A stretch of 32,051 nt of DNA from Candidatus Zixiibacteriota bacterium (GCA_040753495.1 JBFMEF010000042.1:1-32051); one strand, 5' to 3'; shown: positions 1 to 22,698, counted from the stretch's first letter. Made by a program: numbers and translations. The notes: generated from the sequence alone by a model not told the origin.

Positions 1-356
1 TCCTGGACAATCCTGACGCCGGGATATCCGTTGACCAGAATCGGCGCGGGGCGCTGCAGGGTCGAGATTATTCCGGTGCGCAGCCCCATCTTGAGGAAAC
101 ATTCCTTGTCCCAGGCCGAAATCATCACCCCCGGCATCTTGGAATCCCCCAGGGTATCGCCCGCTTCCAGCCGCAGGTTGCGCGCTATTATTCTGGCATC
201 GGCCGCGGCATCATTACTCAGCGCCGTCGCCAGCCAGGTCTCTCGTTCCTGCCCCTGGGCTATTTCCGAGCCAATGAGAAGCAGAATGACCGCCAGCAGG
301 GCGACAGCCAGATACCAGACGGCCAGCGCGAGGAACCGATTTTGATACTGCTTCAT
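1..356 (-). CDS. Secreted or membrane-anchored protein of the late module, cut by the left edge
   Basis: An open frame starts with ATG at 356 and runs off the left edge without a stop, giving 118 complete codons. AGAGG lies about 9 bases upstream, and the stop of the FN3 gene is 12 bases upstream. The N-terminus (MKQYQNRFLALAVWY and onward) has a charged start and then a long hydrophobic stretch at about residues 9-29. A small/polar segment (IGSEIAQGQE) follows that could be a signal peptidase site or the end of a membrane anchor. The rest (ETWLATALSNDAAADA..., later NGYPGVRIVQ) is soluble-looking and not recognised. Position after the tail and internal virion genes suggests a late or virion role, but this is inference. 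It is the fourth protein in this 10 kb with such an N-terminus. Confidence 0.75.
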   Translation of the reverse strand, partial: MKQYQNRFLALAVWYLAVALLAVILLLIGSEIAQGQERETWLATALSNDAAADARIIARNLRLEAGDTLGDSKMPGVMISAWDKECFLKMGLRTGIISTLQRPAPILVNGYPGVRIVQ

Positions 357-368
357 ATCTATATGCCT

Positions 369-830
369 CTATTCGTAACGAAGCACTTCAAGATTGACAA
401 TCCGCGCCGGACGGGTCATATCGGGCAAGTTAACTCTTTTCACATTAGAAACCGGCCCCCGTAGTTCGGCTCCGAAAGTCCCGGTCGTATCGCAGGCGAC
501 AATCGCATAGAAAACATAAGGCTTTCCGGGCATTAAAGAAAAAGCGGCATAGGCGCTGTCAATTTGTCCCGGATTAGAAGGTGTCGGTGTAGCCGGCACA
601 ATCACGCAGGAAAGCGGATTGCAGCTCCAAAAGGAAACACTGTCAGCCGCCGAAAGCGAATCTTCGAAAACTTTCAGGACATAATAGCTGGCCGGTCCCG
701 AGGCTGATTCGTTGGCATCGTCGGGGACAGCCGTCCAGTGCAGCCAGACTCCGGTAGGAGCCGCGGCGCATATCGCTCCGAGAGCCAGTATGGCTAATAG
801 GCTTATCAACATTCCCTGTAACTGCTTCAT
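369..830 (-). CDS. Secreted fibronectin type III-like domain protein
   Basis: 153 aa. The start at 830 has a strong GGAGG 6 bases upstream. Residues 1-24 form a textbook Sec signal peptide: MKQ, then LISLLAILALGAIC, then AAA before P25. No proper lipobox precedes C21, since the -1 residue is Ile. The mature part looks like one FN3 domain: an early VWLHWTAVPDD strand, a central YYVLKVFEDS, and a late MPGKPYVFYAIVACD followed by GPVSNVKRV. FN3 and other Ig-like domains are common on phage surfaces and in host extracellular proteins, where they bind carbohydrate or protein. The gene sits between a small membrane protein and the truncated secreted protein, probably in one late transcript. A virion decoration or adhesion role is inferred; a secreted protein acting on the host envelope is the alternative. 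Confidence 0.8.
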   Translation of the reverse strand: MKQLQGMLISLLAILALGAICAAAPTGVWLHWTAVPDDANESASGPASYYVLKVFEDSLSAADSVSFWSCNPLSCVIVPATPTPSNPGQIDSAYAAFSLMPGKPYVFYAIVACDTTGTFGAELRGPVSNVKRVNLPDMTRPARIVNLEVLRYE

Positions 831-844
831 CGTGTCCTCCTTTT

Positions 845-1144
845 TTATCCTTTGGTTCCGTTCCTGACTTTGTCAATCTTATCGTAGATGCGGGTAATTT
901 CGCCGCTAAGCCGCTCCTTCTCCCGCCAGCTTTCGACCTTATGTTCCTCCAGTTCCTTCTCAATGTTGGCGGTGTCTTTCCGGACGCTGATAATATCCCC
1001 TTTCAAAGAGCCTATCTGCGCGCTTAAAGTCTCTTTGGTGGCGCTTATCTCGCGGATAATTTTTTCGCGTTGTTTCCAGAAGAAACCGACCACCAGAATG
1101 GTCTGGGTGACGACCACCACAACGAACTCGAGGTTGAATTCCAT
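845..1144 (-). CDS. Small membrane coiled-coil protein (possible lysis or virion-associated protein)
   Basis: 99 aa. The ATG at 1144 has AGGAG 6 bases upstream and starts 9 bases after the polyvalent protein stop. Residues 5-22 (LEFVVVVVTQTILVVGFF) form one transmembrane segment with almost no charged lead, followed by WKQREK. The remaining 75 residues are highly charged, with heptad-like spacing (IREISATKETLSAQIGSLKG..., IEKELEEHK, LSGEITRIYDKIDKVRN), so a long coiled coil is predicted. This layout is seen in phage holin-like and i-spanin-like proteins, and also in unrelated bitopic phage proteins. The position after the internal virion genes would fit a lysis gene, but no endolysin is present in the window, so the function is open. 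Confidence 0.75.
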   Translation of the reverse strand: MEFNLEFVVVVVTQTILVVGFFWKQREKIIREISATKETLSAQIGSLKGDIISVRKDTANIEKELEEHKVESWREKERLSGEITRIYDKIDKVRNGTKG

Positions 1145-1153
1145 GCTGCTCTC

Positions 1154-4100
1154 CTAATATCTAAAGTCCGGATAACGGTTATTCCACTCTTCTATCAGTT
1201 TATCTGCTTCCGCGTCTTTCCCTTTTTCTCTCAGTCGGGCGAGACGCTGAATCAACTCTTTCTGCTCAAACTGTATCCGCTTCTCGCGAGCTTCCGGAGT
1301 CTCTGTTCGAGTAAATAGCCTGCCGACCACAGGGATATTCGCCGGATGCGCGATTTCGGGAATCTCCCCACTCGCAGCGGCCTTGACGCCGGTCTCAACT
1401 GTTCTCACTATCCCGCTGGCCAGCCCTCCCGTCATTCCCTGAAGCAGATGGTCGATTTTCCGGGGTGACAAGCCAAAGGTCTTCCCTATAAATTTGGCCG
1501 TCTCGGTCGTGTAGGGACTGAATCTATCTTTAGGGTCTTTGCTTTTCGCTTCCCAGTATGGGTCGATAGGCCGGTCACGGAAGAAATCGTAATTAGCCCA
1601 GAGCTCTATGGGCACTTTGATTGAGGGAGGCAAATCCACCGGCGCCGGGAACGGAACGCCGTTAATCTCAAAGGTCTGCCCGGGGGTAATCTGGTCGACT
1701 ATCGCCCTCATTCCCTCCTTGAGCGCTTCCGGGTCTTTTGAATAGAAATAATTAAGGGCTAATTCGGGACCCCCGGCATAAGCAACCGTCCACTCAAAAG
1801 GTTTGGGCAGCCGCAGAATCTTGTCGGAACCGTCTGGATTTTTCCCCAGGTTGAAATGCCAGAAGGAATATTTCTCCCAGGCGGGGAGCTCCTTGTACCA
1901 CTGCTCATCTTTATGGATGTTCCAGAGAATGGCCGTCGGAATCGTCAGCGAAGCGACCGCTTTCGTAGATGCCTTTATCGGATGTTCCCGAGCGAATCTG
2001 ATGAATTTCGCGAGTCCCTGAACATTCGCGTTCCAGAAGGGAATTATCTGATTGATTACCGACCCATAGGCTCCCATCCTGGTAAAATTGACCGTCACAT
2101 CGCGAGCTGCCGCTGAGGCGAGTATTTGCGCGCTTTCGGATTTCTTCCCGTAGAGCTGCTCTCCCTTTTTGTAAGCGGCCTCGAATTCCGCCAAACGGGG
2201 AATCGATTCAGTGACGCTCAAGACTTCTTTGAGAGCCTCAATCGGATGAGAGACGACATTCATCGTCTTTTTCTTGGCATCGGAGGCAAGCACCTGGCGG
2301 GCCGCCTTCTCAAGACTTTTCCGGTCGGCGCCGATGAAGTGGGCCATATCGACTCCGGAACGCGCATATAACTCCTTCGTCTCGCTACTGGGATTGAAGC
2401 GGTCGATAGTCGCTTTCGCCATAGCATCGGGGAACCGGTCAGGCCGAATGAATTCCGACTGCAGCCAAGCCCCTTGTATGTCACGCAGAGGATTGGTGAT
2501 AAGGCTGAATCCCGGACGTAGCCCGGTCGCCCCCAATCTGACCGCCCGGGCCACTGGAGCGAAGAAATATTTAATGAAGAATGGCTGATGCATCCGGTCC
2601 ATGGACATCAGCGTCTTATAGATATCGGCATGAACCTGATAAGCCTTCTTCTTTCCGTCTACAACCAAGGTAATGATATTGTCGCGATTGATGGCGCGCG
2701 TGGCGGCATTGGTATAGACGGTTACTATCTGGTCAAGCGATGCCCGGCTGACATCAACTCCGGCTTCTTTCAGCTGCCCCTCCAGCTGCTCGAGATTAAA
2801 TTTGGTAGTAGCTTTTGGCAACTCGACTTCTCTTATGAATGCTCCGAGGCCTTCATGGCTATCGGCCAGTTTAGCCAGGGCGCGACCGACTCGGGCTTTG
2901 TCCGCCAGGCCGATAAGGAATGACACATTCTTGACCATGGAATGATAAGGATTTATAATCTGACGACCGCTGCCTCGAATTTTCTTGACGGGCGAGGGCA
3001 AATTGGCCCAGCGAGTCGAGGTCGAAAGCGATGCCAGGTCGGCCCTGGAATCCATGACGCGATAGAAGGGGAAATATTCATTATTGAGCGCCTTCATGGC
3101 ATCGACGGCCTGCCTTTCGATGGCGCCCGATTCTACCACATAATCCCAGACGCGGTCATTAAAAGCCTGATAATCTTCGAATGCCTTCCGGAATAGCCGA
3201 GACTCATATTTGTCTCGGATGAAAGTGGCGTCAGCCAGGTCTATTCCCGGGTTGATTCCCCTCTTATGAAGCTCGAGAGCGCGCCGTGCCGTCCCGTAGA
3301 GGGCAAACTGTTTCTTTTGATTCGATATCGGAGCCAATGCTTCTCGCAGTGAAGGGCCGGTTTTATTACCGGCCATGTCGAAGGTTCCTTCCGTGACCAT
3401 ATCCATCGCTTTGCGGTCGGCTGCCATTTTATTGGCTCGATATTGCAACGTGGGGCTGTCGGCCGGAAGGATTCTACCCTCTTTGGCGGCCTCGGTGATA
3501 TTGCCTTCACCGGTGGCCTTTTTTTCAAGAGTTTCTACCGGCAGCCAATCGTCTTCGAATAAGGTACGTACCCGGGCTATTCCTGAGAGCACTTTCTCCT
3601 TGGCGGTCTGGGCGATGCCGCGCCCCTTCCAATCGATATGAGCGATAACCCGAGCTTCCGAACCCTCGTTTCTCCATCTACTGATAATCCCCTTGCCGCT
3701 TTCGAGAGTCTCTTTAAGCTCTGGATGCTGCGCCAGGAATTGAGTGAACGATTCTGTGAATTTCGGCGCCATAATTTCCGGTTTAGCCGATTCTGTTAGA
3801 TAATGCCGGACATACTCGGCAAATCCTTCATTCGGTCGAGACTTTGTCGGCTCATAATCGAGCTTGCCGAGTTCCTCTTTGTACCCGGGAAGGTCAGAAA
3901 ATTTATACCCTTTGTCGATATGGTGAGCCACCTCATGAGTTAGCGCCGCCACATCCCCCCAGTCTTTCATCGCGATGGTTTCGGCTCTCTTATTGTAGGC
4001 TCCGGTGGCTTTCAGAATTCGTTCCCGCTTCCCTTTAAATCCGGTAAAAATAGGAACTCGCAATGACCGGCTGAAAAACTCCCTGATATGTTGCACTCCG

Positions 4101-5350
4101 ACCGGTTCCCCTTCTTTCGGCATTGTCTCTTTAGCTATCTGAGCGGGGCCCTTGAAAGCCTCGAGTCCTTCGCCCGTTAATTTTCCTCCGGCCTCAGGAG
4201 GTTTGGTCGCCTTCTTCCCCTCGACCGCCTCTTTCAGCCCCGGCATTGACCCGCCGATGACAATCTTCTCAGGCATTTTTGCCGTTTCTTGGGGTGACGC
4301 TCGTTCTGCTTCAACCCTCACATAATTTTTGCCAGTAGCCAAGTCCATTTTGACCTGGGCCCCGGGCGGCAAAACTTCTTCCGGCGCAACTTCACGATAG
4401 GTCGCCGCCGGCACCTTTTTTATGGTGGGTTCAGCGGCGGCCTTATCCGCCACAGCGGAAGGGGCAGTTTCTTTCCCCGGTTTAATTCTACCACCGGAAA
4501 CGCGATATTCCAGTTCCTGACGCGACATCCCGGCAATCTGCTCGGCTGTCAACGGCTCTTTTGAGAACCTCTGCATTTCAAGAAGTTCATCCATAAGTGA
4601 GGCGGTGGGAGATTCTTTTATTTGCCTGAGAGTGACATCTTGGGTTACTGGGATTTCCATCTTCGGTTCTTTCGGCTTCGGGACTTGCTCTAAGCCTGGA
4701 GCTTTAGCGGATTCACCTTGTTCTCTCACTTCGGCTACGGTTCTTTCAAACTCCGGCAAGTTAGCCCGATATTGAGACTTCGACATAGTGAGTCGCGGAT
4801 TGGCGCCGGCCTTCATTGTTGCGCTTCCAGAACCAAAAACACTGGCCAAATCGAAGGCCAGTAGAACCGGATTTTGAGCATACATATCGAGAATCTCTTT
4901 AGAGGTCGGCGCCGGTTGTCTTTCCTGTCCGATATGCGGAGGCTCTTCTATTCCAGCCCCAAAGGCGTTTATCAGCCTCCTGGCGGCGTCGAAAGGATAT
5001 CGAGCCAGTCCATAGGCGGTCTCGCCAGCCGCCTCGGCTGTGGCAAGCGGTCCCTTCAGCTGGGCTTCGACGACCGGCTGGAGAAATTCCGGAGCGCGAA
5101 TTATGCCCTTAAGCGTTGCCTCCGCTCCCTTGATAAGCGTTTCCGGATGCGTGACAGGGAACCCTTTCGGATATTCGGTGGGTGAATAGAGCCAATTGGA
5201 AAAGCCGCCGGCAGCCGCCGGCTCTTCAGGCATAGGCGCAACTGCCGCTTGGCGCTTCAACCAGGGTCTCTGATGCTGCTCAGAAATCTCCACCGCCGTA
5301 TCGGACGCAATTGCCGGAATTTTATTTTTTAACCAGGGACGCTCACCCAT
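1154..5350 (-). CDS. Large polyvalent internal virion protein with zincin-like site and LPD38-like C-terminus
   Basis: 1398 aa, the largest protein here. The N-terminus carries two PWLK motifs (residues 5-8 and 29-32) and a long Pro/Glu/Lys-rich disordered region to about 400. Residues 472-476 read HEVAH (HEXXH), with candidate third ligands in the NEGFAEY segment at 507-513. This matches the gluzincin-like domains found in phage polyvalent proteins. From about residue 925 there is a segment (RAVRLGATGLRPGF, then TNPLRDIQGAW) typical of the LPD38-type C-terminal domain of large phage virion proteins. Another stretch near the end (GLSPRKIDHLL) fits the same group. Such proteins are thought to be packaged in the capsid and ejected with the DNA. 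The gene immediately follows a coiled-coil protein with no gap. The domain names come from pattern recall, not a search. Confidence 0.85.
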   Translation of the reverse strand: MGERPWLKNKIPAIASDTAVEISEQHQRPWLKRQAAVAPMPEEPAAAGGFSNWLYSPTEYPKGFPVTHPETLIKGAEATLKGIIRAPEFLQPVVEAQLKGPLATAEAAGETAYGLARYPFDAARRLINAFGAGIEEPPHIGQERQPAPTSKEILDMYAQNPVLLAFDLASVFGSGSATMKAGANPRLTMSKSQYRANLPEFERTVAEVREQGESAKAPGLEQVPKPKEPKMEIPVTQDVTLRQIKESPTASLMDELLEMQRFSKEPLTAEQIAGMSRQELEYRVSGGRIKPGKETAPSAVADKAAAEPTIKKVPAATYREVAPEEVLPPGAQVKMDLATGKNYVRVEAERASPQETAKMPEKIVIGGSMPGLKEAVEGKKATKPPEAGGKLTGEGLEAFKGPAQIAKETMPKEGEPVGVQHIREFFSRSLRVPIFTGFKGKRERILKATGAYNKRAETIAMKDWGDVAALTHEVAHHIDKGYKFSDLPGYKEELGKLDYEPTKSRPNEGFAEYVRHYLTESAKPEIMAPKFTESFTQFLAQHPELKETLESGKGIISRWRNEGSEARVIAHIDWKGRGIAQTAKEKVLSGIARVRTLFEDDWLPVETLEKKATGEGNITEAAKEGRILPADSPTLQYRANKMAADRKAMDMVTEGTFDMAGNKTGPSLREALAPISNQKKQFALYGTARRALELHKRGINPGIDLADATFIRDKYESRLFRKAFEDYQAFNDRVWDYVVESGAIERQAVDAMKALNNEYFPFYRVMDSRADLASLSTSTRWANLPSPVKKIRGSGRQIINPYHSMVKNVSFLIGLADKARVGRALAKLADSHEGLGAFIREVELPKATTKFNLEQLEGQLKEAGVDVSRASLDQIVTVYTNAATRAINRDNIITLVVDGKKKAYQVHADIYKTLMSMDRMHQPFFIKYFFAPVARAVRLGATGLRPGFSLITNPLRDIQGAWLQSEFIRPDRFPDAMAKATIDRFNPSSETKELYARSGVDMAHFIGADRKSLEKAARQVLASDAKKKTMNVVSHPIEALKEVLSVTESIPRLAEFEAAYKKGEQLYGKKSESAQILASAAARDVTVNFTRMGAYGSVINQIIPFWNANVQGLAKFIRFAREHPIKASTKAVASLTIPTAILWNIHKDEQWYKELPAWEKYSFWHFNLGKNPDGSDKILRLPKPFEWTVAYAGGPELALNYFYSKDPEALKEGMRAIVDQITPGQTFEINGVPFPAPVDLPPSIKVPIELWANYDFFRDRPIDPYWEAKSKDPKDRFSPYTTETAKFIGKTFGLSPRKIDHLLQGMTGGLASGIVRTVETGVKAAASGEIPEIAHPANIPVVGRLFTRTETPEAREKRIQFEQKELIQRLARLREKGKDAEADKLIEEWNNRYPDFRY

Positions 5351-6085
5351 CTACTTCCCAAAAACTCCCTCTATTTGTCGTTTCCAATCATCATAGTCCG
5401 CGCTGCTTATGAGTCCCTTGCGAAGGTCCTCGTCGAGGTCTTTCATCGCCGCCTCTTTCGAGACGTAGCCGTTCCAGGTCGCCTGATTTGTCCATCCGGG
5501 CGCTTCCTCGGCCAGAACCCCACCGATGACCATCTTTCTATTCATATCTCGCAGCATTGCCTGCTTAAAAACCCCCGGGTCGTTACCGTACTGTGCCTTC
5601 TCCTGGCTATCCATAGCATTCCAGAGCCTTACCCATTCGGCCAGGCTGGGCTTTTCTTCCTCAGGTTTTTCGTTGCGGGCCAATTGTAAAGCCTCTTCTT
5701 TTGTCTTGCCCTGTTTCAGGTAGAACTGATATCGCTTTTCCAAGTCGCTGGGAGCATATACGGGAGGCCTCTTCTTCTCTTCCTGCTCCGCCGCGAAACG
5801 CTTCTCCGAAAGCCCGAGCCGGCGCAATTCTAATTCCCTGTTCCAGGCTTCGTTTCGCTGTTGGATGTCAAGGCGAGTATCTCTTTCAGCGGCCGCTTCC
5901 CGACGCTGACGCTCTTCTTCTTCCTGACCGAGATAAAATTTCTTCTGCTGCCAGTCAAACTGACGATTCTCCCTATCCATCTCCTCGCGTCTCAGCCGTT
6001 TCCTCTCCCGTAGGGCGTAGATATCCATCAATCCCTGGCTCAGTCGGCGCAGCGCCTCACTCAAGTCCGCTCTGGCTATTCCCAT
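5351..6085 (-). CDS. Coiled-coil internal virion protein candidate
   Basis: 244 aa. The ATG at 6085 has a GAGGGGAG stretch just upstream. Residues 10-105 are extremely rich in Arg, Glu and Gln with heptad spacing (RERKRLRREEMDRENRQFDW, and later ERQRREAAAERDTR), a long helical rod. The C-terminal half is a more compact segment with WVRLWNAMDSQEKAQYG and EDLRKGLISSADYDDWKRQI, the latter resembling a short helical-hairpin motif. It ends directly against the start of the 1398-aa polyvalent protein, with no spacing. In short-tailed phages, coiled-coil proteins at this position are commonly internal virion or ejection proteins. That role is inferred from location and composition only. Confidence 0.75.
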   Translation of the reverse strand: MGIARADLSEALRRLSQGLMDIYALRERKRLRREEMDRENRQFDWQQKKFYLGQEEEERQRREAAAERDTRLDIQQRNEAWNRELELRRLGLSEKRFAAEQEEKKRPPVYAPSDLEKRYQFYLKQGKTKEEALQLARNEKPEEEKPSLAEWVRLWNAMDSQEKAQYGNDPGVFKQAMLRDMNRKMVIGGVLAEEAPGWTNQATWNGYVSKEAAMKDLDEDLRKGLISSADYDDWKRQIEGVFGK

Positions 6086-6109
6086 GCTCCCCTCGCTCTC
6101 CTTCTCGCC

Positions 6110-6544
6110 CTATACCCGGGCCAGGGCGGCGCGGGTGGAGTAGACATCACCCAGGTTTTGCTGCCGGCGGTTATAGAGGTTCTGATAAAACTCGGCCAGG
6201 GGCATATAAAGCGATTGGATAGTCGCGTTGGTCAGAGCCTGCTGCGTCAGTCCTGAGCGATTTCCAAATCGCGCTCCGGCCGTCTGCAAAAATTTCTTCA
6301 GCGCCGGCGCATTGGCCAGCTGCAGCATCCGCGACATTTTGTTCAGTTCATTCTGGTCGATATCGGCGGTCAACTGCTCTTCCAATTCCGGAAGCTTCCA
6401 GTAGGACTGCTCACCGACTCCCAGGCGCCGGTTGAGGATATCCCGTTCCGGCTTGCTTAGTTTTCCGCCGCCGCCGACCAGACCACTGGCGGTGCTTCCC
6501 AGGACAGAGCCGATTGCCAGAAATTCATCAATTCCGAAAGCCAT
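6110..6544 (-). CDS. Small internal virion protein candidate (gp14-like position)
   Basis: 144 aa. The ATG at 6544 follows an AGGGAGGTAGAACAA leader, a good ribosome site. The N-terminal 27 residues (GIDEFLAIGSVLGSTASGLVGGGG) are Gly/Ala/Ser-rich and weakly hydrophobic. The rest is helical and Gln/Asn-rich (EEQLTADIDQNELNKMSRML, QNLYNRRQQNLGD). This layout, a glycine-rich amphipathic N-terminus followed by helices, is often seen in small ejection proteins encoded between the nozzle gene and the large internal proteins of podoviruses. No specific family could be assigned with certainty. Confidence 0.7.
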   Translation of the reverse strand: MAFGIDEFLAIGSVLGSTASGLVGGGGKLSKPERDILNRRLGVGEQSYWKLPELEEQLTADIDQNELNKMSRMLQLANAPALKKFLQTAGARFGNRSGLTQQALTNATIQSLYMPLAEFYQNLYNRRQQNLGDVYSTRAALARV

Positions 6545-6562
6545 TTGTTCTACCTCCCTTTT

Positions 6563-8998
6563 TTAGTCTATTCCGACCGGTTTGACGATACAGTCAATCC
6601 CGTCTATCTTCACTTTGGTTATGTTCTTATCCACGGCGTTCATAATCGGCTCTATCTGCAGATTAAACCAGTGCGCGGTATGGAGGGTGCTCTGGTCGAC
6701 ATATCTTTTGGCGTGAGCGTAAGAGAGAGAATCGAAAGTAAGCGTGTCCAGTTTCTGACCGTCTTCGTTATAGACCCTGACTCTAACCAGAGGGTCACCG
6801 GCGGCCGTGTCATCGATATTAGACAGCCAATCAGAGCGCAAGTAGGCCGCCTCAAAATTCACCGGCTCCAGGCTGCGGGCAATCCCCCGTTTCTCGTAAA
6901 GAGGATAAATCCGATACCCCCCCTCATCGAGGGAATCGTTGTAGTCGAGTTTATAGAGAAGGTCTGATCCCGGGCTCACAAAGCAGAAATCCCGAAAGGG
7001 CGCCAGGTTAACCCGATTGAGGGTATCATACATAACCGCGTCATGGAAATCCAGGTAGGTCCAGAAAGACCAGCCATTGGTCTTGAAAAAATGAGCCCAG
7101 GTGGTGTCGGTATTGGGATAAGAGAAAAGCAAAATATCATCGAAAATCCGCATCGCCGCCGCCGTCATGCTGTCAGGGCTTCTAACGATATAATTGCGGA
7201 TGTTGTCGGAAATATAACGGCGCGAGAGTGACTGGTCGCGGTAGATATTCCCCGTCTCCAGGGAGATTCCTTTCCGGTCCAGAAAAATATTGGCGCCGTT
7301 ATAATTGACGAACCCCTGGCGGGCAATCTGTCCGACGCCCGATTCCTTCTTACTGCGATTATAGACATTCCCATCCTGGGTATAGATTATCAAGATGGAA
7401 TTGTGCCGATAAAGAATCAGATACCCCTCGTAAGAGACCAGGCGAACATTCTGGTCGCCGTCATCGAGATCGACATCGAGGTAGTCGAACTGATACCATT
7501 CGTAAGGCGTGCCGGACTGGGAGATATAGATCTTCTGGTCGTCCCAGCCCCAGAGGCGACCTTCATGAACCACCACCCCGCTTAGAACTACATCGAGCAC
7601 ATTGCGCTCAAAGAGGTCATGATTGGCTTCCAGGTCGCGCCAGTGCTCGGTATCGGTGTAATCGGTGGCGGCATTGCTGGTGATAGTGTCCAACACATAC
7701 CAGCCGTGATAGTAAGGGGCATCATTGACGATATCAATTAGCCGCTTTATGACGACCCTGACATATCGGCTCTGGCAGGGCGGCAGCCCGATTTTCGTCT
7801 GAAAACGCTCAATTTCGGTGTTATAGTAAGTCAGAGCCCGAGAAGTATCGCTCGTTCTGCCCGTCAGCGTGTCCAGCAAATAAACCGCATACTGAACCCA
7901 CCAGTTGCTGGAATAGCCGGAAACGGTGTCGGCCGTTGACCCGCCGTCTCCATCTAAGAAAGTGGGCGCGCCCAGAGAATAGTAGCAGTTCTTCAGCGGC
8001 GGATATTCCTGGTTTAGGAGGTACTGGATATTTAATCCCGATGGAGGCTGGGCTTCCCGGATGGTTTTCCAGAAGTAGGTATTGTTCAGGGTGGCATCAC
8101 TCAGATTGTCACCGTGGTTCCAGAGCTGAGCGTTTGTCCAGTTGTTGGTTACGCTGAAGGTATCTATTACAAAAAGTGAATCGGTGTCAAAATTGTTATG
8201 GTCACCGCGAGTTCGAACCAGCAGGAAATCAAGCGCCCCCGGGGCGACACAGACAGAGTCGGCAATTTGCGGATAGAGATTCTGAATGAGTATTCTCTCG
8301 TTGAGCGCCCGCACTGGCGCCGACAAGGGACCACACCACTTCGAAAAAGCGTAATTGGTTGAGCAGGGCACTTCGGCTACAAAAGCGTAGCGATAGACGC
8401 CGTTGAGATTGCCGGACTGTTTAAGCGTAATCACTTCAGCCTGTCCCGGGGCTAACGGGGTGACGTAATCGGCCGTCATGGTCGAGGGAGCGCCGGAGAT
8501 AATTAGCGGGCGATTTCTGCCGTTGCAAAATAGAATATCATCATTCCAAACCGTCCAGATGCCGGTAGTGGGATAGAGATAAGAATAAAGCGAGTCGGTA
8601 CAATCGTAAGAGAATGGCTCGCTGACCTTCAGGTCGGCATAATAGCCGGTGTTGATTCTCAAAACCTCAAAAAGATACCCCTGCCCATTGGAGAAGCGAT
8701 GTGAAAAAATCGCCGAAATTTCATTATGATTCGGCAGGGCGCTGGTCAGGGCGTGAAATCCCGGTCTTGGATAGAGGCTCCCGGGGTATCGGTCGAGATT
8801 CCAGTTGCGGACTATCTGCGCCTGCTCTGGCGGAACGGAGAATATATTATCGACCGAGTTCATCCCTCCGGAGAAGTTGTAGATTGAATATGGCTCCTGG
8901 GCGGTAACAACCTCAGGAGCCACTTCCGTTAAAAGGAGGACTAAAGCGAATAAGGCCCAGGTGACTGGGGTTATTTGGAAAGCTCGCTTACCTCTCAT
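6563..8998 (-). CDS. Tail nozzle protein (T7 gp12/P22 gp10-like) with N-terminal signal peptide
   Basis: 811 aa from the ATG at 8998. This start is chosen over the in-frame ATG at 9013 because GGGAGG sits 7 bases before it. It overlaps the preceding adaptor by 11 bases. The segment at residues 40-81 (YNFSGGMN, then PPEQAQIVRNWNLDR, then RPGFHAL) is the characteristic opening of nozzle/tail-tubular-B proteins: SGG, then an N-x-D type turn, then a RPG motif. Long beta-rich repeats follow, with many D, Y and W residues, as expected of a propeller-like nozzle that caps the short tail. Unusually, residues 1-33 form a Sec signal peptide: RGKR, a TWALFALVLLL core, and VTA before QEP. The fold assignment is fairly safe; export is a prediction. 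Confidence 0.85.
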   Translation of the reverse strand: MRGKRAFQITPVTWALFALVLLLTEVAPEVVTAQEPYSIYNFSGGMNSVDNIFSVPPEQAQIVRNWNLDRYPGSLYPRPGFHALTSALPNHNEISAIFSHRFSNGQGYLFEVLRINTGYYADLKVSEPFSYDCTDSLYSYLYPTTGIWTVWNDDILFCNGRNRPLIISGAPSTMTADYVTPLAPGQAEVITLKQSGNLNGVYRYAFVAEVPCSTNYAFSKWCGPLSAPVRALNERILIQNLYPQIADSVCVAPGALDFLLVRTRGDHNNFDTDSLFVIDTFSVTNNWTNAQLWNHGDNLSDATLNNTYFWKTIREAQPPSGLNIQYLLNQEYPPLKNCYYSLGAPTFLDGDGGSTADTVSGYSSNWWVQYAVYLLDTLTGRTSDTSRALTYYNTEIERFQTKIGLPPCQSRYVRVVIKRLIDIVNDAPYYHGWYVLDTITSNAATDYTDTEHWRDLEANHDLFERNVLDVVLSGVVVHEGRLWGWDDQKIYISQSGTPYEWYQFDYLDVDLDDGDQNVRLVSYEGYLILYRHNSILIIYTQDGNVYNRSKKESGVGQIARQGFVNYNGANIFLDRKGISLETGNIYRDQSLSRRYISDNIRNYIVRSPDSMTAAAMRIFDDILLFSYPNTDTTWAHFFKTNGWSFWTYLDFHDAVMYDTLNRVNLAPFRDFCFVSPGSDLLYKLDYNDSLDEGGYRIYPLYEKRGIARSLEPVNFEAAYLRSDWLSNIDDTAAGDPLVRVRVYNEDGQKLDTLTFDSLSYAHAKRYVDQSTLHTAHWFNLQIEPIMNAVDKNITKVKIDGIDCIVKPVGID

Positions 8999-9686
8999 CG
9001 ACCGGCCTCCCAAGGAGTTTCTGCTCGATGAAAAGGATATTCTGGAGAAGTTCCTCTTTGTCGGGCGGGCTGAAATTTATCCGGCTATAGCATTTTAGAA
9101 CTACGCGGTCAATCAGGAGCGGCTCAAACTGCTGGGGCAAATCAAGCGTGTCGGTGGTGTCGGTCAAAATTTCATGATGGGCGAAATAGAATAGCGTCGC
9201 CGTATCCAGTTCCGTTTGGCTAACCCGGTCGAAGCGGATTTTATCGTTGAATACGCTCCACTGCGTGGGGCGTCCCGACTCGAAAGCGGGATTGCGTCCA
9301 TAGTCGCGGAGCGGGGAGTATTTCAAGGCCGAGGGACGGGGGGTCTCGTTGCTGCCAGGGGCCGGATTGGGATTTAAAATCACCGCTTCCCCCAGATAGA
9401 AATCGCTCGGCAGGGTATACTCATAGGCGGCGCCGGTCAGGACAATGGTTGTTTCTCGCTCGAGAGCCGAGCCGAGGATGGCGATATTCTCCGCTTCTTC
9501 GTTGGTGAACTGACGGATAAGAGAATCGGTTATCCGGCGGCTGTCGAAATAAAGGCTTCTCCCTCTGACGGAACGGTAGATGTCGGCCAGGGTGGCGCTC
9601 TCCAGAATATTGATAGACCAGAGCGCCAGAAAACCCAAAAGCAGAATAACCGCTATCCGCCGTTTACGGAAGTTCGTCGATTTCAA
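8988..9686 (-). CDS. Second adaptor-like (head-tail connector) protein with N-terminal hydrophobic signal
   Basis: 232 aa from a TTG at 9686, preceded by GGGAGG about 4 bases away. An upstream ATG at 9713 in the same frame would add nine residues and lacks a clear ribosome site. Either start overlaps the previous gene. Residues 7-10 are basic (RKRR) and 11-27 hydrophobic (IAVILLLGFLALWSINI), then ESATLADI: a signal peptide or anchor. The mature part contains YTLPSDFY (LPSDF at 92-96), the Tyr/Leu-Pro pattern typical of phage adaptor proteins of the gp11/gp4 kind. YFAHHEILT and a C-terminal helix (KEELLQNILFIEQKLLG) follow. It should bind between the portal or first adaptor and the nozzle. The signal-like N-terminus is atypical for this role. 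Confidence 0.75.
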   Translation of the reverse strand: MKSTNFRKRRIAVILLLGFLALWSINILESATLADIYRSVRGRSLYFDSRRITDSLIRQFTNEEAENIAILGSALERETTIVLTGAAYEYTLPSDFYLGEAVILNPNPAPGSNETPRPSALKYSPLRDYGRNPAFESGRPTQWSVFNDKIRFDRVSQTELDTATLFYFAHHEILTDTTDTLDLPQQFEPLLIDRVVLKCYSRINFSPPDKEELLQNILFIEQKLLGRPVDER

Positions 9687-10377
9687 GAAGCCTCCCTTCG
9701 AGATATGGGTCAATTGTGACGGTCGGAATGGGCGGCGTTACCGGACGCGCCTGCGCTATCAGGCGGCGCAAACCCTGTTCATAAAGAGTATCCTCATCCT
9801 TAGTGACCGCCTTCCACCAGACATACCCGTCGGCCCCCCTCTTCTCGACGGGTGGCGCCAGTATCGAAAGAACTTTATGCACCAGTGTCGGAACATGGCT
9901 TTCGGGTAAACGATTGAGATTGCCCAGCGTCGGCTTAAGACAGTAATGCAGGTAGTAAGTTGTGCTTTCTGTTGGGCTGGGGCTGAAGGCGAGCTGCTTG
10001 CGCCCATTATCGGCCAGGCCATAGAGCATCGCCACCTCCGGAACTCCCGTGTTGTAAAGCTCGCTGCCACTGACATCGGCCGGATTCAGGCTGGCATCAT
10101 AGCCATCCTCGCCGACGAAGTTGATTTTCTTCTTGCGGGCGCTATCGGCAATCTTGATGATTCTGCCGATATCGTCCCGGCCGAGCGTCACTACTCCGGT
10201 ATTGGCTGGAACGCTAAAACTATGTGGCGCTCCGGCCCGTAGGAACCACCATTCATGGCGGTCTCCCATCTCTGACCAGGCCGACTCGATAGTCGCTTCA
10301 ATGGCGGCGCGATAATCGGCGTTGAAATTCATCACTTTGCCCTGAATCATCACCACCACCTTGTTGATATTAGCCAT
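9664..10377 (-). CDS. Adaptor-like (head-tail connector) structural protein
   Basis: 237 aa. The start ATG at 10377 is favoured because AGGAG lies 7 bases upstream; the frame is open further upstream but lacks a good site. It overlaps the end of the glycosyltransferase gene by 8 bases. The N-terminus (MANINKVVVMIQGKV) is not a signal peptide. Residues around 20-45 (ADYRAAIEATIESAWSEMGDRHEWWFLRA) match the helical opening of phage adaptors, with the typical aromatic WWFLR cluster. TTYYLHYCLKP and LPESHVPTLVHKVLSIL further in fit the same class. The product probably docks on the portal ring. A second adaptor-like gene follows, so the two may form successive rings or be a duplicated pair. Confidence 0.7.
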   Translation of the reverse strand: MANINKVVVMIQGKVMNFNADYRAAIEATIESAWSEMGDRHEWWFLRAGAPHSFSVPANTGVVTLGRDDIGRIIKIADSARKKKINFVGEDGYDASLNPADVSGSELYNTGVPEVAMLYGLADNGRKQLAFSPSPTESTTYYLHYCLKPTLGNLNRLPESHVPTLVHKVLSILAPPVEKRGADGYVWWKAVTKDEDTLYEQGLRRLIAQARPVTPPIPTVTIDPYLEGRLLEIDELP

Positions 10378-11844: not shown

Positions 11845-13080
11845 TTAAGCGTAGGTCGTCACACCCTTGAGAATCGAGATATTCTCCGGATTGATGACGC
11901 CCAGCCCGACTTCGGCGATATGCTCGTCGGTGAAGCCGTCGGTACCATCTCTGACGACATTCTCGTAGAGAGCGACATCAGAGTTCTGCAGATAACGATA
12001 CTGGACCAGGTCGGGGTCGAAGACGATGGCAACGCCTCCGTAGCCGGCCGTGGTTGTGCCGTAGGGCGAATTCTGCAGGATGGTATCGCGGACGATAAGC
12101 AGGGTGCCGTTACCGGTCTCCCACTCGGCGACCTTGATGCCATAGAGATATTCGCTTGGCTTCATCTGCAGCTTGCCGTCTTTCCAGTAGTCCAGCATCT
12201 CGATGACGAGCGGAGAGCAAAGGGCTACCCGCACCATAGCATCGCCATACTGGAAACAGGACCGGACAAAACTCAGCCAGCCCGACTTGGTGAATGTGGT
12301 AGTGGCGGTGGTGACATTCCCCCCGCCGTTGATGCCCCAATACCAGAGACCGCCGGTGGTCCGGATAGGGGCGCCGTTGACCGGACCGGTCAGGTCCTCA
12401 TACGGCTCCGACCAGAGAAAAGCATACTCGATATTCTTCTTCAGCTCGATGAGGGACTCCTGGCGGAGCTCCTCTTTCTTTTTCCCGCCGTAATATTCCG
12501 AGTTCTGAGCGGTGCGGGAAAGACCCAGAGTATCGCGGAATATACCGCAATAATTCGTCCGAAGACGATTCTGGACCTTGTGGATGGTCGGGGGTGCCTG
12601 GTTCTCCTCCGACTGCGTCGCCAGTCGCAGAAGCGGCTCGTTGTCGGCCCAGGCAGCCGCCGCCGTAGCGCCGAATCCGCGCACTACGGTGATGGTGTTA
12701 GCCCCGGTGTCACGCGCCGTGACGTAGACAACCTCTTCCTTGACGACATTTTTGACGATGTCGCCAACCTGGATATGGGCGACCGAATCGCAGATGATGG
12801 TTGTCGCGCCGGCGGTGTAGCCGGTGGAGTAGTTGACCGCCGTCCAGCGTCCGCGCGGCTCTTTCTCCAGGACTTTGAATTCCGGATTGACGCATACCTT
12901 TTTCTTCGCGGGCAGCTTTCCGTCGGATTTTGACCCGACTTCCAGTCCGCCGCCGCCGCTGATATGCACAAGCGGCGTCAGGTCTTTCTGCAGCCAGAAG
13001 ACTTCCGGAGGAGTGTCAATTTTCCGTTCGGCCTGAAGAACCGTCCCGGTGCTCTGTCTTCCGGTTATATAACTGGGCAC
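11845..13080 (-). CDS. Major capsid protein, SU10/phiEco32-type
   Basis: 411 aa from a GTG at 13080, with AAGGAG about 10 bases upstream. The order of features fits the SU10-like (DUF5309-type) major capsid proteins of HK97 fold: an N-terminal MPSYITGRQSTGT, a beta-rich insertion with DSVAHIQVGDIVKN and VYVTARDTGANTITVVRGFG (about residues 90-140), then helical segments EELRQESLIELKKNIEYAFLW and a C-terminal strand block (LYGIKVAEWETGNGTLLIVRD). The insertion resembles an Ig-like or carbohydrate-free beta domain common in this group. The gene sits directly after the scaffold-like gene, as expected. A hairpin lies 8 bases beyond its stop. Family assignment is by recalled sequence pattern and is strong but not searched. 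Confidence 0.88.
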   Translation of the reverse strand: MPSYITGRQSTGTVLQAERKIDTPPEVFWLQKDLTPLVHISGGGGLEVGSKSDGKLPAKKKVCVNPEFKVLEKEPRGRWTAVNYSTGYTAGATTIICDSVAHIQVGDIVKNVVKEEVVYVTARDTGANTITVVRGFGATAAAAWADNEPLLRLATQSEENQAPPTIHKVQNRLRTNYCGIFRDTLGLSRTAQNSEYYGGKKKEELRQESLIELKKNIEYAFLWSEPYEDLTGPVNGAPIRTTGGLWYWGINGGGNVTTATTTFTKSGWLSFVRSCFQYGDAMVRVALCSPLVIEMLDYWKDGKLQMKPSEYLYGIKVAEWETGNGTLLIVRDTILQNSPYGTTTAGYGGVAIVFDPDLVQYRYLQNSDVALYENVVRDGTDGFTDEHIAEVGLGVINPENISILKGVTTYA

Positions 13081-14661: not shown

Positions 14662-16515
14662 TTAGGCTCCCAATAATTGATAAGGTTGTGTCGGGGCGCG
14701 TTCCGATAGACGCGAGGCTTCCGGCAAATTGCCCAACTCGGGATTCGCTTGTCGACCCAGAAGTCGCTCTGCTCCTCCCGTGTTGAGAATGCTCGCCACC
14801 TGGGTTAGAACATCGTTCTGTCCGGTGTCGAGGGGTATACCGAAGACTTCGGCTGGAATCATGAATCGTTCGGCATCCTCGCGGTCAAAGCTCTGATAAA
14901 GAGTTTTCAGCGCATAGCGGTTATTCTGGAGCGGCGCCGGAATTACCTCGCCGGTGACCAGGCGGACATACTGCTGCGTCTGTGAGCCGAGCCTTACCAG
15001 CTCCACCAAGTCGGCGCGGCGGGCGGCGCGGCGAATCGATTCGCTGATGCCCGATACGCGATAGAGAAATTCACCGCAGATTTCTTCTTTCGAAATCCAC
15101 TGATACTGCCCTCCCTGGGCGCTTCCGTCCATGTAAACCTGCATCTGCTCCGGCATGAACTGTTCCACTAGGGAAGCGCAGATTTTTGCTTCAGGAAGGA
15201 GGGTGCATTTTTCGTAAGTCATCCCATCATACTGAATCCGCTGGTCGCCCTGGGAGGCGAATATGGTATCGGAAGTCGCGGAATGCACGCGGGGAGAAAA
15301 CCCTTTTTGCGGTCCGAAATATCCGGTCGTTTCCTCGATGCTGGAAGCGATAAGAGCGTTCAGTTGGAGGATGTCCTGTTTCATCTCGGGCATCCGGACG
15401 ATATCGACATCGTCCATTTCTTCCACCGGAATGCGCTGATTGGGAACCGATATCAGCCAGTTGGGGTCGACATTCGCCTTGTGCTTCCAAATCGGCCAGT
15501 TGTTCATGATGGCATTATCACCGGCCATGTCGAGGAGAAGGTTGCCGAATTTCTGGGCCGGCAGGATCATCTTGGCCATCGCAATCGGATAGAAGCTGTC
15601 GGGGTCGAGCGTTTTGATACCCTGGACGATCGGCTTCGTCTTGTGGTAGTAAAAATTATCAACATCGCGAATAATAGTCTCGTCATTGGCCAGGGTGATG
15701 AAGTGGTCGTCGGCGATAAAATGCTGCAGGCGGATAATTCCTTCATCCGGTTTGGGTTGCTCATAGCCCATCTGGGACTGTCGCATGTAATACTGGATTT
15801 CATTCTGGCCGGACATATTCAGGGGAATCTGCTTGACCTTGCTGAGGTCGAAGGCGCCGGACTGAGCCATCTCCAAAAGATGCTGCGCCGGCAGAAACTG
15901 CTCGATGATTACCCAGGGCTTCTCCTCCAGGGTCAGTCCATGGGGATGGGGAAAGACTTCGGTCGGACTCAGTACTTCAAACCAGAGACCGTCATAGACC
16001 GTCTCTTCGACCATGATTTTTTCTTTGTATCGATAGCCATAAATCTCGAGGTCGATGACTTTTTCGGTTTTGCGTTTTATTCGCTTCCAGGATGGTATCC
16101 GGAAACCGCAGCCGTAAAGCAGGGTGTATTTCAAGAGCCGCTGGCTGGTCAGATACCAGGCCGGGCAGTGCTCGAAGTAATATTGCAGGACCCGCTCGCG
16201 ATTTTGGGCGATGTCAAAGGCGGTGCCATTGGAGGGCTGGACAGAGACGAAGGGCTTATGGCTGAATTGCCCTATTGTCATCCGCGAGGCTTCCAGTTCG
16301 ACCTGGGGGAAAATTTTATGGTAGTGGAAATTGGAACGGCGGAGTTTTTTGAACTTCTCGCGGAGATATCCGTGGTAGTTGAGATAGATTTCCGTCCATT
16401 GATCGCGCCGCGTCCGCTGGCATTCTTTGGCGAGCTGGTAGGCTTCCCGAACCTTCTTGACCGGGTCGGTTTTCGCTATGACATAAGCGCCGAGTGTCTT
16501 GCTTTCCTTTGGCAT
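14662..16515 (-). CDS. Portal protein (podovirus-type head-tail connector)
   Basis: 617 aa. The ATG at 16515 has GAGG about 8 bases upstream. The protein has the size of short-tailed phage portals. It shows the expected opening: a helical segment with RRDQWTEIYLNYHGYLREKF, then FPQVELEASRMTIGQF, where portals cross from the wing into the stem. Later IMNNWPIWKHKANVDPNWL and QDILQLNALIASSIEETTGYFG match the region after the stem in P22/phiEco32-like portals. A C-terminal helical crown (EDAERFMIPAEVFGIPLDTG, then LTQVASILNTGG) follows. It forms the dodecameric ring for DNA entry and docks terminase and adaptors. The order terminase, portal, scaffold, capsid supports the call. Confidence 0.83.
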   Translation of the reverse strand: MPKESKTLGAYVIAKTDPVKKVREAYQLAKECQRTRRDQWTEIYLNYHGYLREKFKKLRRSNFHYHKIFPQVELEASRMTIGQFSHKPFVSVQPSNGTAFDIAQNRERVLQYYFEHCPAWYLTSQRLLKYTLLYGCGFRIPSWKRIKRKTEKVIDLEIYGYRYKEKIMVEETVYDGLWFEVLSPTEVFPHPHGLTLEEKPWVIIEQFLPAQHLLEMAQSGAFDLSKVKQIPLNMSGQNEIQYYMRQSQMGYEQPKPDEGIIRLQHFIADDHFITLANDETIIRDVDNFYYHKTKPIVQGIKTLDPDSFYPIAMAKMILPAQKFGNLLLDMAGDNAIMNNWPIWKHKANVDPNWLISVPNQRIPVEEMDDVDIVRMPEMKQDILQLNALIASSIEETTGYFGPQKGFSPRVHSATSDTIFASQGDQRIQYDGMTYEKCTLLPEAKICASLVEQFMPEQMQVYMDGSAQGGQYQWISKEEICGEFLYRVSGISESIRRAARRADLVELVRLGSQTQQYVRLVTGEVIPAPLQNNRYALKTLYQSFDREDAERFMIPAEVFGIPLDTGQNDVLTQVASILNTGGAERLLGRQANPELGNLPEASRLSERAPTQPYQLLGA

Positions 16516-17095: not shown

Positions 17096-17719
17096 TTAAG
17101 TTTTCCGTTTCTGGTGGTTGATATTATCCTCGAGGACTAAAGCTCCAATATTCCCCATCTCTTCCCATTGACCGAGCGGCTTGACCTCGCTTAAGAATCT
17201 CCCGACGGTATCCCAAAGAACATCATGGAAGACGATTATCGCCGGCCGCTCCAGAAGCGGCGCCCAGAGTTCAAAATCCTGTTTTACCGACTGATATTTG
17301 TGGTCGCCGTCGATGAAGAGAAAATCAAAATTCTTATTCGGCAGGATAGACCGCTTGAATTCCTCCACCGCTTTTTCGGAGCGCTTCCGCAGAATGGTCA
17401 ACCGGTCAAACAGCCCGAAAGTCATCAGATTCCGCTTGAACTCCGGAAAAACATTTATCCCGAAATACTCCGGAATATCGCAGTCCATCCAGCTGTCGAC
17501 GACGACGAAGGGGAGTCCGCGGCGCTTGGCGGTGTCGGCTAGATAGACGGTGCTTCTCCCCTTCCAGGCGCCGATTTCAATCAGTCCGTGCTTCGCCATG
17601 GAAGCGTATCTGACCAGAAAATCGGTCTGTTGCGGTATGTCGACATACGACTCGATATTTTTAGCCAGCGGGTCAATTTCGGTGCGTAGATGCTCGATGG
17701 TCTCAGGGTTAAGCGGCAT
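17096..17719 (-). CDS. Class I SAM-dependent methyltransferase (Methyltransf_24-like)
   Basis: 207 aa. The ATG at 17719 has GAGGAG 8 bases upstream and lies 2 bases after the terminase stop. Motif I is GLIEIGAWKGRSTVYLA (about 45-61), where E48 and the G50-x-x-x-G54 turn hold SAM. FDFLFIDGDHKYQSVKQD (131-148) with D137, D139 and H140 is the post-II motif typical of the Methyltransf_24 family, and IIVFHDV (161-167) follows. Members of this family methylate small molecules or sugars, often next to glycosyltransferases; DNA methylation motifs (NPPY-like) are absent. In this genome it is co-transcribed with terminase and ends just before the terminator. Its substrate cannot be told from sequence. 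Confidence 0.85.
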   Translation of the reverse strand: MPLNPETIEHLRTEIDPLAKNIESYVDIPQQTDFLVRYASMAKHGLIEIGAWKGRSTVYLADTAKRRGLPFVVVDSWMDCDIPEYFGINVFPEFKRNLMTFGLFDRLTILRKRSEKAVEEFKRSILPNKNFDFLFIDGDHKYQSVKQDFELWAPLLERPAIIVFHDVLWDTVGRFLSEVKPLGQWEEMGNIGALVLEDNINHQKRKT

Positions 17720-17721
17720 AG

Positions 17722-19170
17722 TTAAATCTCCTCGATTATCGGTTCTCCGGTATCATCGCGATAGCGCATCTGAATTTTCTTGGGGGCTCCTGATTGAAAT
17801 CGTTTCGCCCACTCTTTGACTTCGGTCAGGGCGTAAACAATCGCGTCCACCAGGTCGTCATGGAAGGTTCCTTCGCCCGTGAACATCTGCATTTGCGTCA
17901 TCAGTTCCAATTGCTTACGGTCGGCGTAATTGAAATGGACTTTCTTCCGCTGCACCAGTCCCTGAACCTTATGCGCCCGCATGACCTTGTCATGGATTGG
18001 CTTGACCTGTTTTAAGTTTAGGCTGGTTGAGTAGAGTTTTTCCTTATCCTTGATTTCGGTGATGATGGCGTCTTCGTTTGGCTCTTTGCAGCGCGATTCG
18101 ACGATGGTTTTGTTCTGGTCGTATTTGTCTTTGACAACGAATAGTTGGTCAACCGCTTCCTTTGTTGTCCAGTGGTTATTCTCGGCATTCAGAACATAGA
18201 CATCAGGGTCGCTGCCGTGCGTAGCGAGCACGGTCACTATCGCCGTATAGTCAGCCTGGCTGTTCTTGCTCTCTGCCGGGTCTATGGCCGTAACGATGTA
18301 GTGATTATTCCGGAGCACCTCGCGGTAGGCCGCGCTATCCGGCTCGTATTTGGCAAACCACTCTTCGCGAAAGACAGGATTGCCGGGGACCAACGGCCGA
18401 AGAAGATACTCGGCATTGTAGGCGTCCATTCCGATTTCGTTCCTGCGAAACTCGAGGAACTCGTCAGGGAACTGTTGCGGCCAGACCGATTTTCCAGAGC
18501 CGACCGGATGCTCCGCGGGAAATCCAAGGTAGGTGTACCCGGGGAGTTTCTTGATTTTCGAGAGAAGCGATAAAGGCGACATTCCCGTGCCGATAAAAAT
18601 CAAACGCTGGTCTTTGAGTAGGACCGGAAGGACATCGTCAAAGAGCCAGGCTTCGTCCGATTTGAGCACCGCTTCGCTGCGCATATCCCGGATATCCTGA
18701 GGGTCGTCGACTATCACAGAGCCGCGACTGCCTCGAACGGAGGCGCCCTTTCCACGCGAATAAAAGTCACAGCGGCTGCCGTCGGCACGGATAACCTGGA
18801 GATGGTCTTGCCCCCAGTGGTCGCCGCGGCGAAACTGGTAATCATGCTTGAGAAGGGAATTCTCTTCGAACTCGCGCTGCATAAGCTGCATCCACTTTGT
18901 GGCGATACCGGTCGGACCTCCTGAAGCCGAAAGAAGCTGCACCTCTGGCACCTGCGTCTCACAGATGAGATAAGCCGGGTAAATGCGGCAGGCGATTGAG
19001 GACTTGGCCAATCCACGGAAGCCCTCGATGACGATTCGGGTGAGGCTGTCGTCATAGAGGGCGGCATAGATTTCCCGGTGCGCCTTCGGGACCGGCGCGG
19101 TAAGAAGCGGACTGAAATACTGCGCCGCGAAAAGCTCGATTGGATTGAGGTCGAAATTGCGGTTAATCAC
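17722..19170 (-). CDS. terL: Terminase large subunit (DNA packaging ATPase-nuclease)
   Basis: 482 aa from a GTG at 19170, which overlaps the small-subunit stop as GTGA. The ATPase half has an adapted Walker A (IEGFRGLAKSSIA, K56) and Walker B SVIVDDPQDIRD (D155, D156). IFIGTGMSP (about 191-199) is the coupling motif. The RNase H-like nuclease half has VTAIDPAESKNSQADYTAIV (D297 as first acidic residue) and a late FHDDLVDAIVYAL near residue 450 as the last acidic cluster. Both catalytic centres look intact. The protein cleaves and translocates DNA into the procapsid through the portal. The length and motif set fit podovirus/T7-like large terminases. Confidence 0.92.
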   Translation of the reverse strand: MINRNFDLNPIELFAAQYFSPLLTAPVPKAHREIYAALYDDSLTRIVIEGFRGLAKSSIACRIYPAYLICETQVPEVQLLSASGGPTGIATKWMQLMQREFEENSLLKHDYQFRRGDHWGQDHLQVIRADGSRCDFYSRGKGASVRGSRGSVIVDDPQDIRDMRSEAVLKSDEAWLFDDVLPVLLKDQRLIFIGTGMSPLSLLSKIKKLPGYTYLGFPAEHPVGSGKSVWPQQFPDEFLEFRRNEIGMDAYNAEYLLRPLVPGNPVFREEWFAKYEPDSAAYREVLRNNHYIVTAIDPAESKNSQADYTAIVTVLATHGSDPDVYVLNAENNHWTTKEAVDQLFVVKDKYDQNKTIVESRCKEPNEDAIITEIKDKEKLYSTSLNLKQVKPIHDKVMRAHKVQGLVQRKKVHFNYADRKQLELMTQMQMFTGEGTFHDDLVDAIVYALTEVKEWAKRFQSGAPKKIQMRYRDDTGEPIIEEI

Positions 19171-22218: not shown

Positions 22219-22698
22219 CTAATTACTGTTTAGATTTTTTCTGCTCTTTATTTCACCACCAATGTCAAACCGAAGTAGAACCTGACCGATAAATCCGAGG
22301 GAAGCCGCCGTTCCGGGGTGCCGGCGAGCTCCTGCGGCAATTAGAAAATCGGTGCTTTGGTCTCGCAAAACCTTTTTAGTCAAAAGAACCTGAGCTCCTA
22401 TATAAGGTTCAAAATTCTGCCGGTCTAATCTAACGACCGGTCCAGTCAGCAGACTAAAACCTCTGCCGATAATCGATTCCACCTCCAGCATCACCGTTGA
22501 ATAGCTGGCGTTGCCTTCCAAGGAAAGAATAAGGTTCCCATGGTAATCGCGGGGGATAATCCACCGGACGGAACCGCCGGGCTCCCAGGTAGAACGGGAT
22601 GTTAGAGCTGAGTATCCTAGGATAAATTCCGACCCGCTTGACTGCGCCCGGGCTATTGCCGCGAGCAGAAGCAGACTAATGATTAGAAGCGTTTTCAT
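22219..22698 (-). CDS. Secreted beta-barrel-like outer membrane protein candidate
   Basis: 159 aa from the ATG at 22698, chosen because AGGAG lies 7 bases upstream and it begins a signal peptide: MKTLLIISLLLLAAIARA, then QSS. The longer frame from 22773 overlaps another gene and would bury the signal. The mature part alternates short amphipathic beta strands and turns (EFILGYSALTSR, GNLILSLEGNASYSTVMLEV, FSLLTGPVVRLD, FEPYIGAQVLLTKK, FLIAAGARRH, LGFIGQVLLRFDIGG), as in small outer membrane barrels. It sits among early small genes, away from the virion block. Phage-encoded outer membrane or periplasmic proteins can block receptors or DNA entry of rival phages. That role is inferred; only secretion and beta structure are read from sequence. 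Confidence 0.75.
   Translation of the reverse strand: MKTLLIISLLLLAAIARAQSSGSEFILGYSALTSRSTWEPGGSVRWIIPRDYHGNLILSLEGNASYSTVMLEVESIIGRGFSLLTGPVVRLDRQNFEPYIGAQVLLTKKVLRDQSTDFLIAAGARRHPGTAASLGFIGQVLLRFDIGGEIKSRKNLNSN

Follow-up and report, generated by a model that had tools for sequence, protein, structure and literature searches.

Tailed-phage assembly is assumed to be cytoplasmic, and we know of no tailed phage that builds its tail outside the cytoplasm. Export signals do occur on other phage proteins. The coat proteins pIII and pVIII of filamentous phages are made with signals and are put in the inner membrane before assembly, and phage-encoded surface lipoproteins and o-spanins also carry genuine export signals. 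Our search of the literature, in which subscription journals and preprints were thinly covered, found no account of tail adaptors or nozzles that carry Sec signals, nor of a tailed virus that uses such a route.

The tails of SU10, KHP30, crAss001 and N4 share an adaptor family with the phage described here, as judged from the sequence and predicted fold of its second adaptor (adaptor 2). The gene order portal, scaffold, capsid, adaptors, nozzle is also common to them. In this phage and its relatives, four divergent phages in all, signal-type N-termini are found on adaptor 2 and the nozzle and not on the head genes, at rates above those of chance and of the controls.

The window, i.e. the whole stretch of DNA that was analysed, is one complete contig (C42) of 32,051 bases from a metagenome-assembled genome. 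It is a tailed phage with terminase, portal and capsid genes, and its late genes are all on the minus strand. RecA of this genome shares 87% identity with the RecA of a Candidatus Zixiibacteriota MAG, against 75% for the next organism, so the host is most likely a Zixibacterium. The features are as follows.

1..356, minus strand: left-edge protein, ended by the contig edge, with a predicted signal peptide or anchor (AQG/QER; signal scorer)
369..830, minus strand: FN3-like protein with a predicted signal peptide (AAA/PTG; signal scorer), whose relatives have a signal or lipobox; the label comes from the relative L021:43-456 (fn3, 9e-5)
845..1144, minus strand: small N-terminally membrane-anchored coiled-coil protein, possibly Rz-like (phrog_739 Rz-like spanin at 0.025 only); positional counterpart L044:6175-6459
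1154..6544, minus strand: three internal/ejection-type proteins (6110-6544, 5351-6085 and 1154-5350, the last LPD38), signal-negative (PHROG/Pfam, signal scorer)
6563..8998, minus strand: nozzle-like tail protein, predicted signal at residues 1-33 (VTA/QEP); phrog_511, phrog_3287, relative L042:9012-11432, signal scorer
8900..8998, minus strand: nozzle signal-coding segment (signal scorer; BLAST to the relative aligns from residue 31 only)
8988..9686, minus strand: second tail adaptor (adaptor 2), SU10_adaptor family, with a predicted N-terminal Sec-type signal or anchor at residues 1 to about 31 (PF24175, Foldseek, signal scorer)
9588..9686, minus strand: signal/anchor-coding segment of adaptor 2; no ATG, GTG or TTG between the core's end and codon 75
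9664..10377, minus strand: first adaptor (adaptor 1), signal-negative (SU10_adaptor 5.4e-4, below cut-off; relative L042:7677-8354)
11845..13080, minus strand: major capsid protein, signal-negative (52% identity to L042:5029-6231)
14662..16515, minus strand: portal, signal-negative (relatives, signal scorer)
17722..19170, minus strand: large terminase, signal-negative (relatives, signal scorer)
22219..22698, minus strand: extra signal-bearing small protein, not in the late module (signal scorer)

Adaptor 1 and the internal proteins were identified from weak Pfam and PHROG matches, relatives and gene order. Some neighbouring genes deserve mention. The LPD38 internal protein (1154-5350, minus strand) is common to BA3, Vibrio, Pelagibacter and Bacillus Page-like phages. 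A glycosyltransferase-like gene (10370-11386, minus strand; FFLDDDMGF motif by eye, no Pfam match) separates the capsid gene from that of adaptor 1; it is strongly kept in L042:6748-7677 (4.9e-89), and a role in virion glycosylation is possible. A Methyltransf_24 gene (17096-17719, minus strand; 1.9e-23) lies between terminase and portal.

Adaptor 2 is, by sequence and predicted fold, a member of the SU10_adaptor family. Residues 32-201 match positions 2-157 of PF24175 (1.9e-13; 51.8 bits, with a curated cut-off of 27) and adaptor 2 of all four phages matches this profile at E <= 0.01. A Foldseek search with an AlphaFold model of moderate confidence (pLDDT 68) returned KHP30 as the best match (7wmp, 4.1e-6), then VP1, crAss001, N4 and SU10 (7z47, 1.3e-4). 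The identity of the nozzle is less certain. It is suggested by weak PHROG matches (phrog_511, 7.3e-7; with relatives, phrog_3287 virion structural protein, 2.4e-12), by its position after the adaptors and by a very weak PDB profile match (GP4 virion protein 8jov_A, E 0.81). It is 33% identical to L042:9012-11432, and its AlphaFold model (pLDDT 38) is too poor for use.

Signals were scored with a home-made scorer that uses a basic n-region, a 10-residue Kyte-Doolittle core and a von Heijne-type cleavage matrix for positions -3/-1. The scorer was positive in 23/133 host genes (17%), nearly all of them convincing signals or lipoproteins, the doubtful ones being, by eye, a few pilin-like or membrane proteins; spurious ORFs scored positive at about 2% (2/78 and 4/192). 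Within the window, adaptor 2, the nozzle, the FN3-like protein, the left-edge protein and the protein at 22219-22698 are positive, and the remaining 36 called genes are negative. A previous, sequence-only reading of this DNA had claimed that the first four begin with a basic start, a hydrophobic core and a small-residue exit, and that such a start is absent from the terminase, portal, capsid, adaptor 1 and the internal virion proteins; it did not list the protein at 22219-22698. Both claims were borne out: all four minus-strand starts are scorer-positive, and all of the latter proteins, as well as the scaffold, are negative.

The sequence features of predicted Sec/SPase I substrates (basic n-region, hydrophobic core, small -3/-1 residues) are found by the scorer in these proteins. 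Each of the four starts has a basic stretch, a hydrophobic core of 12-25 residues and a plausible exit, and the scores are within the host's own signal range. Adaptor 2 (9686 down to 8988) has a TTG start with GGGAGG ahead of it and begins MKSTNFRKRRIAVILLLGFLALWSINILESATLADIY, while the nozzle (8998 down to 6563) has an ATG start and begins MRGKRAFQITPVTWALFALVLLLTEVAPEVVTA/QEPYSIYNFSGGMN. The FN3-like protein (830 down to 369) begins MKQLQGMLISLLAILALGAICAAA/PTGV and the left-edge protein (356 down, to the contig end) MKQYQNRFLALAVWYLAVALLAVILLLIGSEIAQG/QERE. No lipobox with Cys (SPase II) was found in these four genes; lipoboxes were found in L044:6463-6897 (LTGC) and in the adaptor 2 of another relative, G002 (LSAC). 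The protein at 22219-22698 has a very clear signal, MKTLLIISLLLLAAIARA/QSS (exit AIARA/QSS); L044:10857-11375 resembles it by look, with homology between them not detectable.

A capsid search identified an IMG/VR phage (L042, L044 and L045) with 52% capsid identity, and two further relatives are phage contigs within Zixibacteria genomes (G002:C48 = L008 and G070:C81 = L019). The IMG/VR phage can be tied to the Zixibacteria phylum because a truncated portal in a Zixibacteria genome (L007:2384-3187, in G020:C18) is 94% identical to its own. This fragment, which has a tyrosine-recombinase-like gene nearby, is the remnant of an integrated relative. Scans of IMG/VR with the window nozzle, the window adaptor 2, the L008 capsid and the L019 capsid gave no relatives, and tblastn against INPHARED with the nozzles, the window portal and the G002 spike gave no matches. 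L003, a terminase match, was rejected as a relative: its identity is only 25% and it carries virion genes that look unlike the window module.

In the window, L042, G002:C48 and G070:C81 the scorer is positive for adaptor 2 (4/4) and the nozzle (4/4), the G070 nozzle being scored from its ATGA-overlapping start at 12459 and not from the internal Met (MIRIIIFLLFILASSVMG/Q). The same four phages have no signal in 35/35 head and internal proteins, i.e. terminase, portal, scaffold, capsid, adaptor 1, ejection proteins and small neighbours. The contrast between 8/8 and 0/35 is far beyond chance, although the four phages, being of common descent, do not count as independent trials.

Homology of the nozzles and of adaptor 2 over the four phages is significant, with identity down to about 20%, and the signal stretches hardly align. 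For example, BLAST aligns the window and L042 nozzles from window residue 31 on only, yet both keep a signal, so the property has been conserved while the sequence was rewritten. Retention of a hydrophobic start as a property is what one would expect to see if the signal is functional. Do related phages keep the extension, as the sequence-only reading proposed to examine? It is kept in distant relatives of both adaptor 2 and the nozzle, and a search for a relative in the same nozzle/adaptor lineage without it found none. Furthermore, adaptor 2 of the window and of G002, the FN3-like protein and the left-edge protein have no internal start that gives a signal-less protein with a full-length domain.

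Beyond adaptor 2 and the nozzle, the relatives have further proteins with signals that are of receptor type (beta-helix, CBM96/disaggregatase-like, PKD-like and FN3-like). In G002, signals also occur on FN3-like, beta-helix and other proteins, and L044 has signal-type starts on an FN3-like lipoprotein and on CBM96-like and PKD-like proteins. The G002 adaptor 2 (L008:7353-8015), with its lipobox-like LLSAC, could be a lipoprotein, which is odd for a tail adaptor. The split between head and tail is not pure, because signal-bearing genes also lie between portal and scaffold (L008:1776-3218 and L019:6974-7510); these are candidate exported head decorations.

The control phages gave a different picture. 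No signal-positive structural protein was found in six cultivated podoviruses (crAss001, BA3, Page, FGH, SU10 and KHP30; 0/97). SU10-type adaptors of another phylum (399 genomes) have genuine signals in 0/30 cases; the lone scorer positive, the L149 adaptor, has an internal Ala-rich stretch and was rejected as a false positive. In the same host phylum, 0/7 other adaptors have a signal, and the two neighbouring nozzles that were checked have none. As signal-less adaptors and nozzles are found elsewhere in the phylum, and the nozzle profile of the signal-bearing lineage fails to reach these nozzles, the trait marks a nozzle/adaptor lineage among phages of the Zixibacteria phylum. Two further hints of export were discarded: cysteine enrichment, as a sign of the periplasm, showed no useful difference and no sign of an oxidising compartment, and low lysine is common to nozzles without signals.

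A basic start with a strong hydrophobic core should direct a protein to Sec, and these starts score like the host's exported proteins, thus Sec targeting is expected. Judged from sequence, the predicted export of these proteins is well supported, and from it we infer translocation, cleavage and the place and time of head-tail joining. The explanation that we favour, with a little more belief than doubt, is that Sec carries the proteins of the distal tail and of receptor binding across the inner membrane or leaves them anchored in it, and that they are joined to DNA-filled heads no earlier than the breach of this membrane. That the virion would be built in two compartments, with cytoplasmic heads, with a distal tail and receptor-binding proteins that reach the periplasm via Sec, and with the two joined across the inner membrane or after its breach, we regard as evenly balanced between true and false.

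Under the favoured explanation, the phages are podoviruses of Zixibacteria in which adaptor 2, the nozzle and the receptor-binding or decorating proteins would be made as Sec substrates, and would cross the inner membrane or stay anchored in it. The signal may be cleaved by signal peptidase or the anchor may be kept; the bulk of the protein would be outside either way. Heads, complete with DNA, portal, adaptor 1 and ejection proteins, would be cytoplasmic products. The two compartments would then meet where adaptor 1 joins adaptor 2, either at the inner membrane or in the periplasm after lysis proteins open the membrane, and joining would most likely occur when the phage lysis proteins open the inner membrane. 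Just downstream, the IMG/VR relative encodes small membrane proteins as well as a protein that looks M15-like by eye (no Pfam match), which is compatible with lysis-coupled joining. That said, the lack of a tailed-phage precedent, and the fact that a DNA-filled head cannot pass an intact inner membrane, count against the favoured explanation.

For the FN3-like and left-edge genes, and for the other genes downstream whose products have a signal or are lipoproteins, an alternative is that they encode cell-surface proteins of infection or lysogeny, e.g. for superinfection exclusion or adhesion, a reading that we consider possible but short of probable. It is compatible with the favoured explanation, and would leave only adaptor 2 and the nozzle to explain. 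The window FN3-like protein has no match in Pfam, and the fn3 match of its relative L021:43-456 is just below the curated cut-off. Another relative, L044:6463-6897 of the IMG/VR phage, is a predicted lipoprotein with a textbook lipobox, and the domains concerned are generic adhesion modules. Similar phage lipoproteins have been reported, with one case of a comparable kind in PMC4936722. The FN3-like protein may be a cell-surface protein rather than a tail part; for the left-edge protein, a search for relatives found none. However, this reading does not account for adaptor 2 and the nozzle, and the L021 beta-helix and L044 816-aa proteins are spike- or fibre-like by size, domain and place. The sequence-only reading had proposed that tail parts pass through or anchor in the inner membrane before assembly, or that the sequences are kept for another purpose, and it is partly supported. 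Its extensions are real, outside the family domain (PF24175 from residue 32) and kept; the FN3-like and left-edge proteins are at most candidate tail parts.

Could the hydrophobic starts be uncleaved anchors? Tail parts would then form an assembly platform in the inner membrane, dock cytoplasmic heads and be released at lysis. The window adaptor 2 lacks a clean cleavage site (either Ser24 or a Thr32-Leu-Ala34/Asp motif), the left-edge protein has a core of sufficient length to stay in the membrane uncleaved, and the G002 nozzle core is likewise long. Furthermore, a membrane-held tail accounts for how soluble heads find the tail. We nevertheless think this unlikely, as the small-residue exits of most nozzles and several adaptor 2 proteins are good (VTA/Q, GRA/E, VNG/T). 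Moreover, a basic N-terminus puts the bulk of the protein outside, so head docking faces the same topology problem; with adaptor 2 or the left-edge protein as an uncleaved anchor, the C-terminus would still be outside.

A further proposal is that the hydrophobic N-termini are parts of the virion, buried in the tail lumen or entering the membrane of the recipient, with no use of Sec in the producer. Adaptors and nozzles line the DNA channel, and hydrophobic segments are common in ejection proteins. We find this improbable: the starts have a full n-h-c signal make-up that scores like the host's exported proteins, they also occur on receptor-type and lipobox proteins, a newly made basic and hydrophobic start would normally be caught by SRP/Sec, and no control podovirus has such segments. 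An artefact, i.e. wrong start codons or chance hydrophobicity with the true proteins starting downstream, would suit the TTG start of the window adaptor 2, the G070 nozzle ATG two codons ahead of the predicted cleavage site and some internal start codons in the IMG/VR and G070 adaptor 2, but is highly improbable given ribosome-binding sites ahead of both window starts (adaptor 2 and nozzle), no internal start behind the signal in the window and G002 adaptor 2, and homologues that are 8/8 positive versus about 2% of spurious ORFs.

Our analysis suggests that head and tail may be made on opposite sides of the inner membrane in a group of uncultivated Zixibacteria viruses. If part of the tail is exported first, head-tail joining would be coupled to membrane breach or lysis, a premature ejection in the cell that makes the virion could be avoided, and before release the tail parts could work at the cell surface. 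Signals on the adaptor and nozzle are also a simple genomic mark to seek in other phages.

Compared with known systems, the window adaptor 2 has an added signal, whereas the known SU10_adaptor members that we checked begin at the domain and have none. Among BA3-like and Page-like podoviruses, the large LPD38-type internal protein recurs in Thalassomonas BA3, Vibrio FGH and Bacillus Page, with 24-28% identity along some 60% of its length, but their structural proteins are all without signal. Phage surface lipoproteins and o-spanins are a possible model for the FN3-like lipoprotein, but are not tail-structure proteins, as adaptor 2 and the nozzle are. The filamentous pIII and pVIII are likewise virion proteins with signals that are placed in the inner membrane before assembly, a comparison of mechanism only: filamentous phages extrude through the membrane with no pre-filled head, while the window phage is tailed and has a terminase, portal and capsid.
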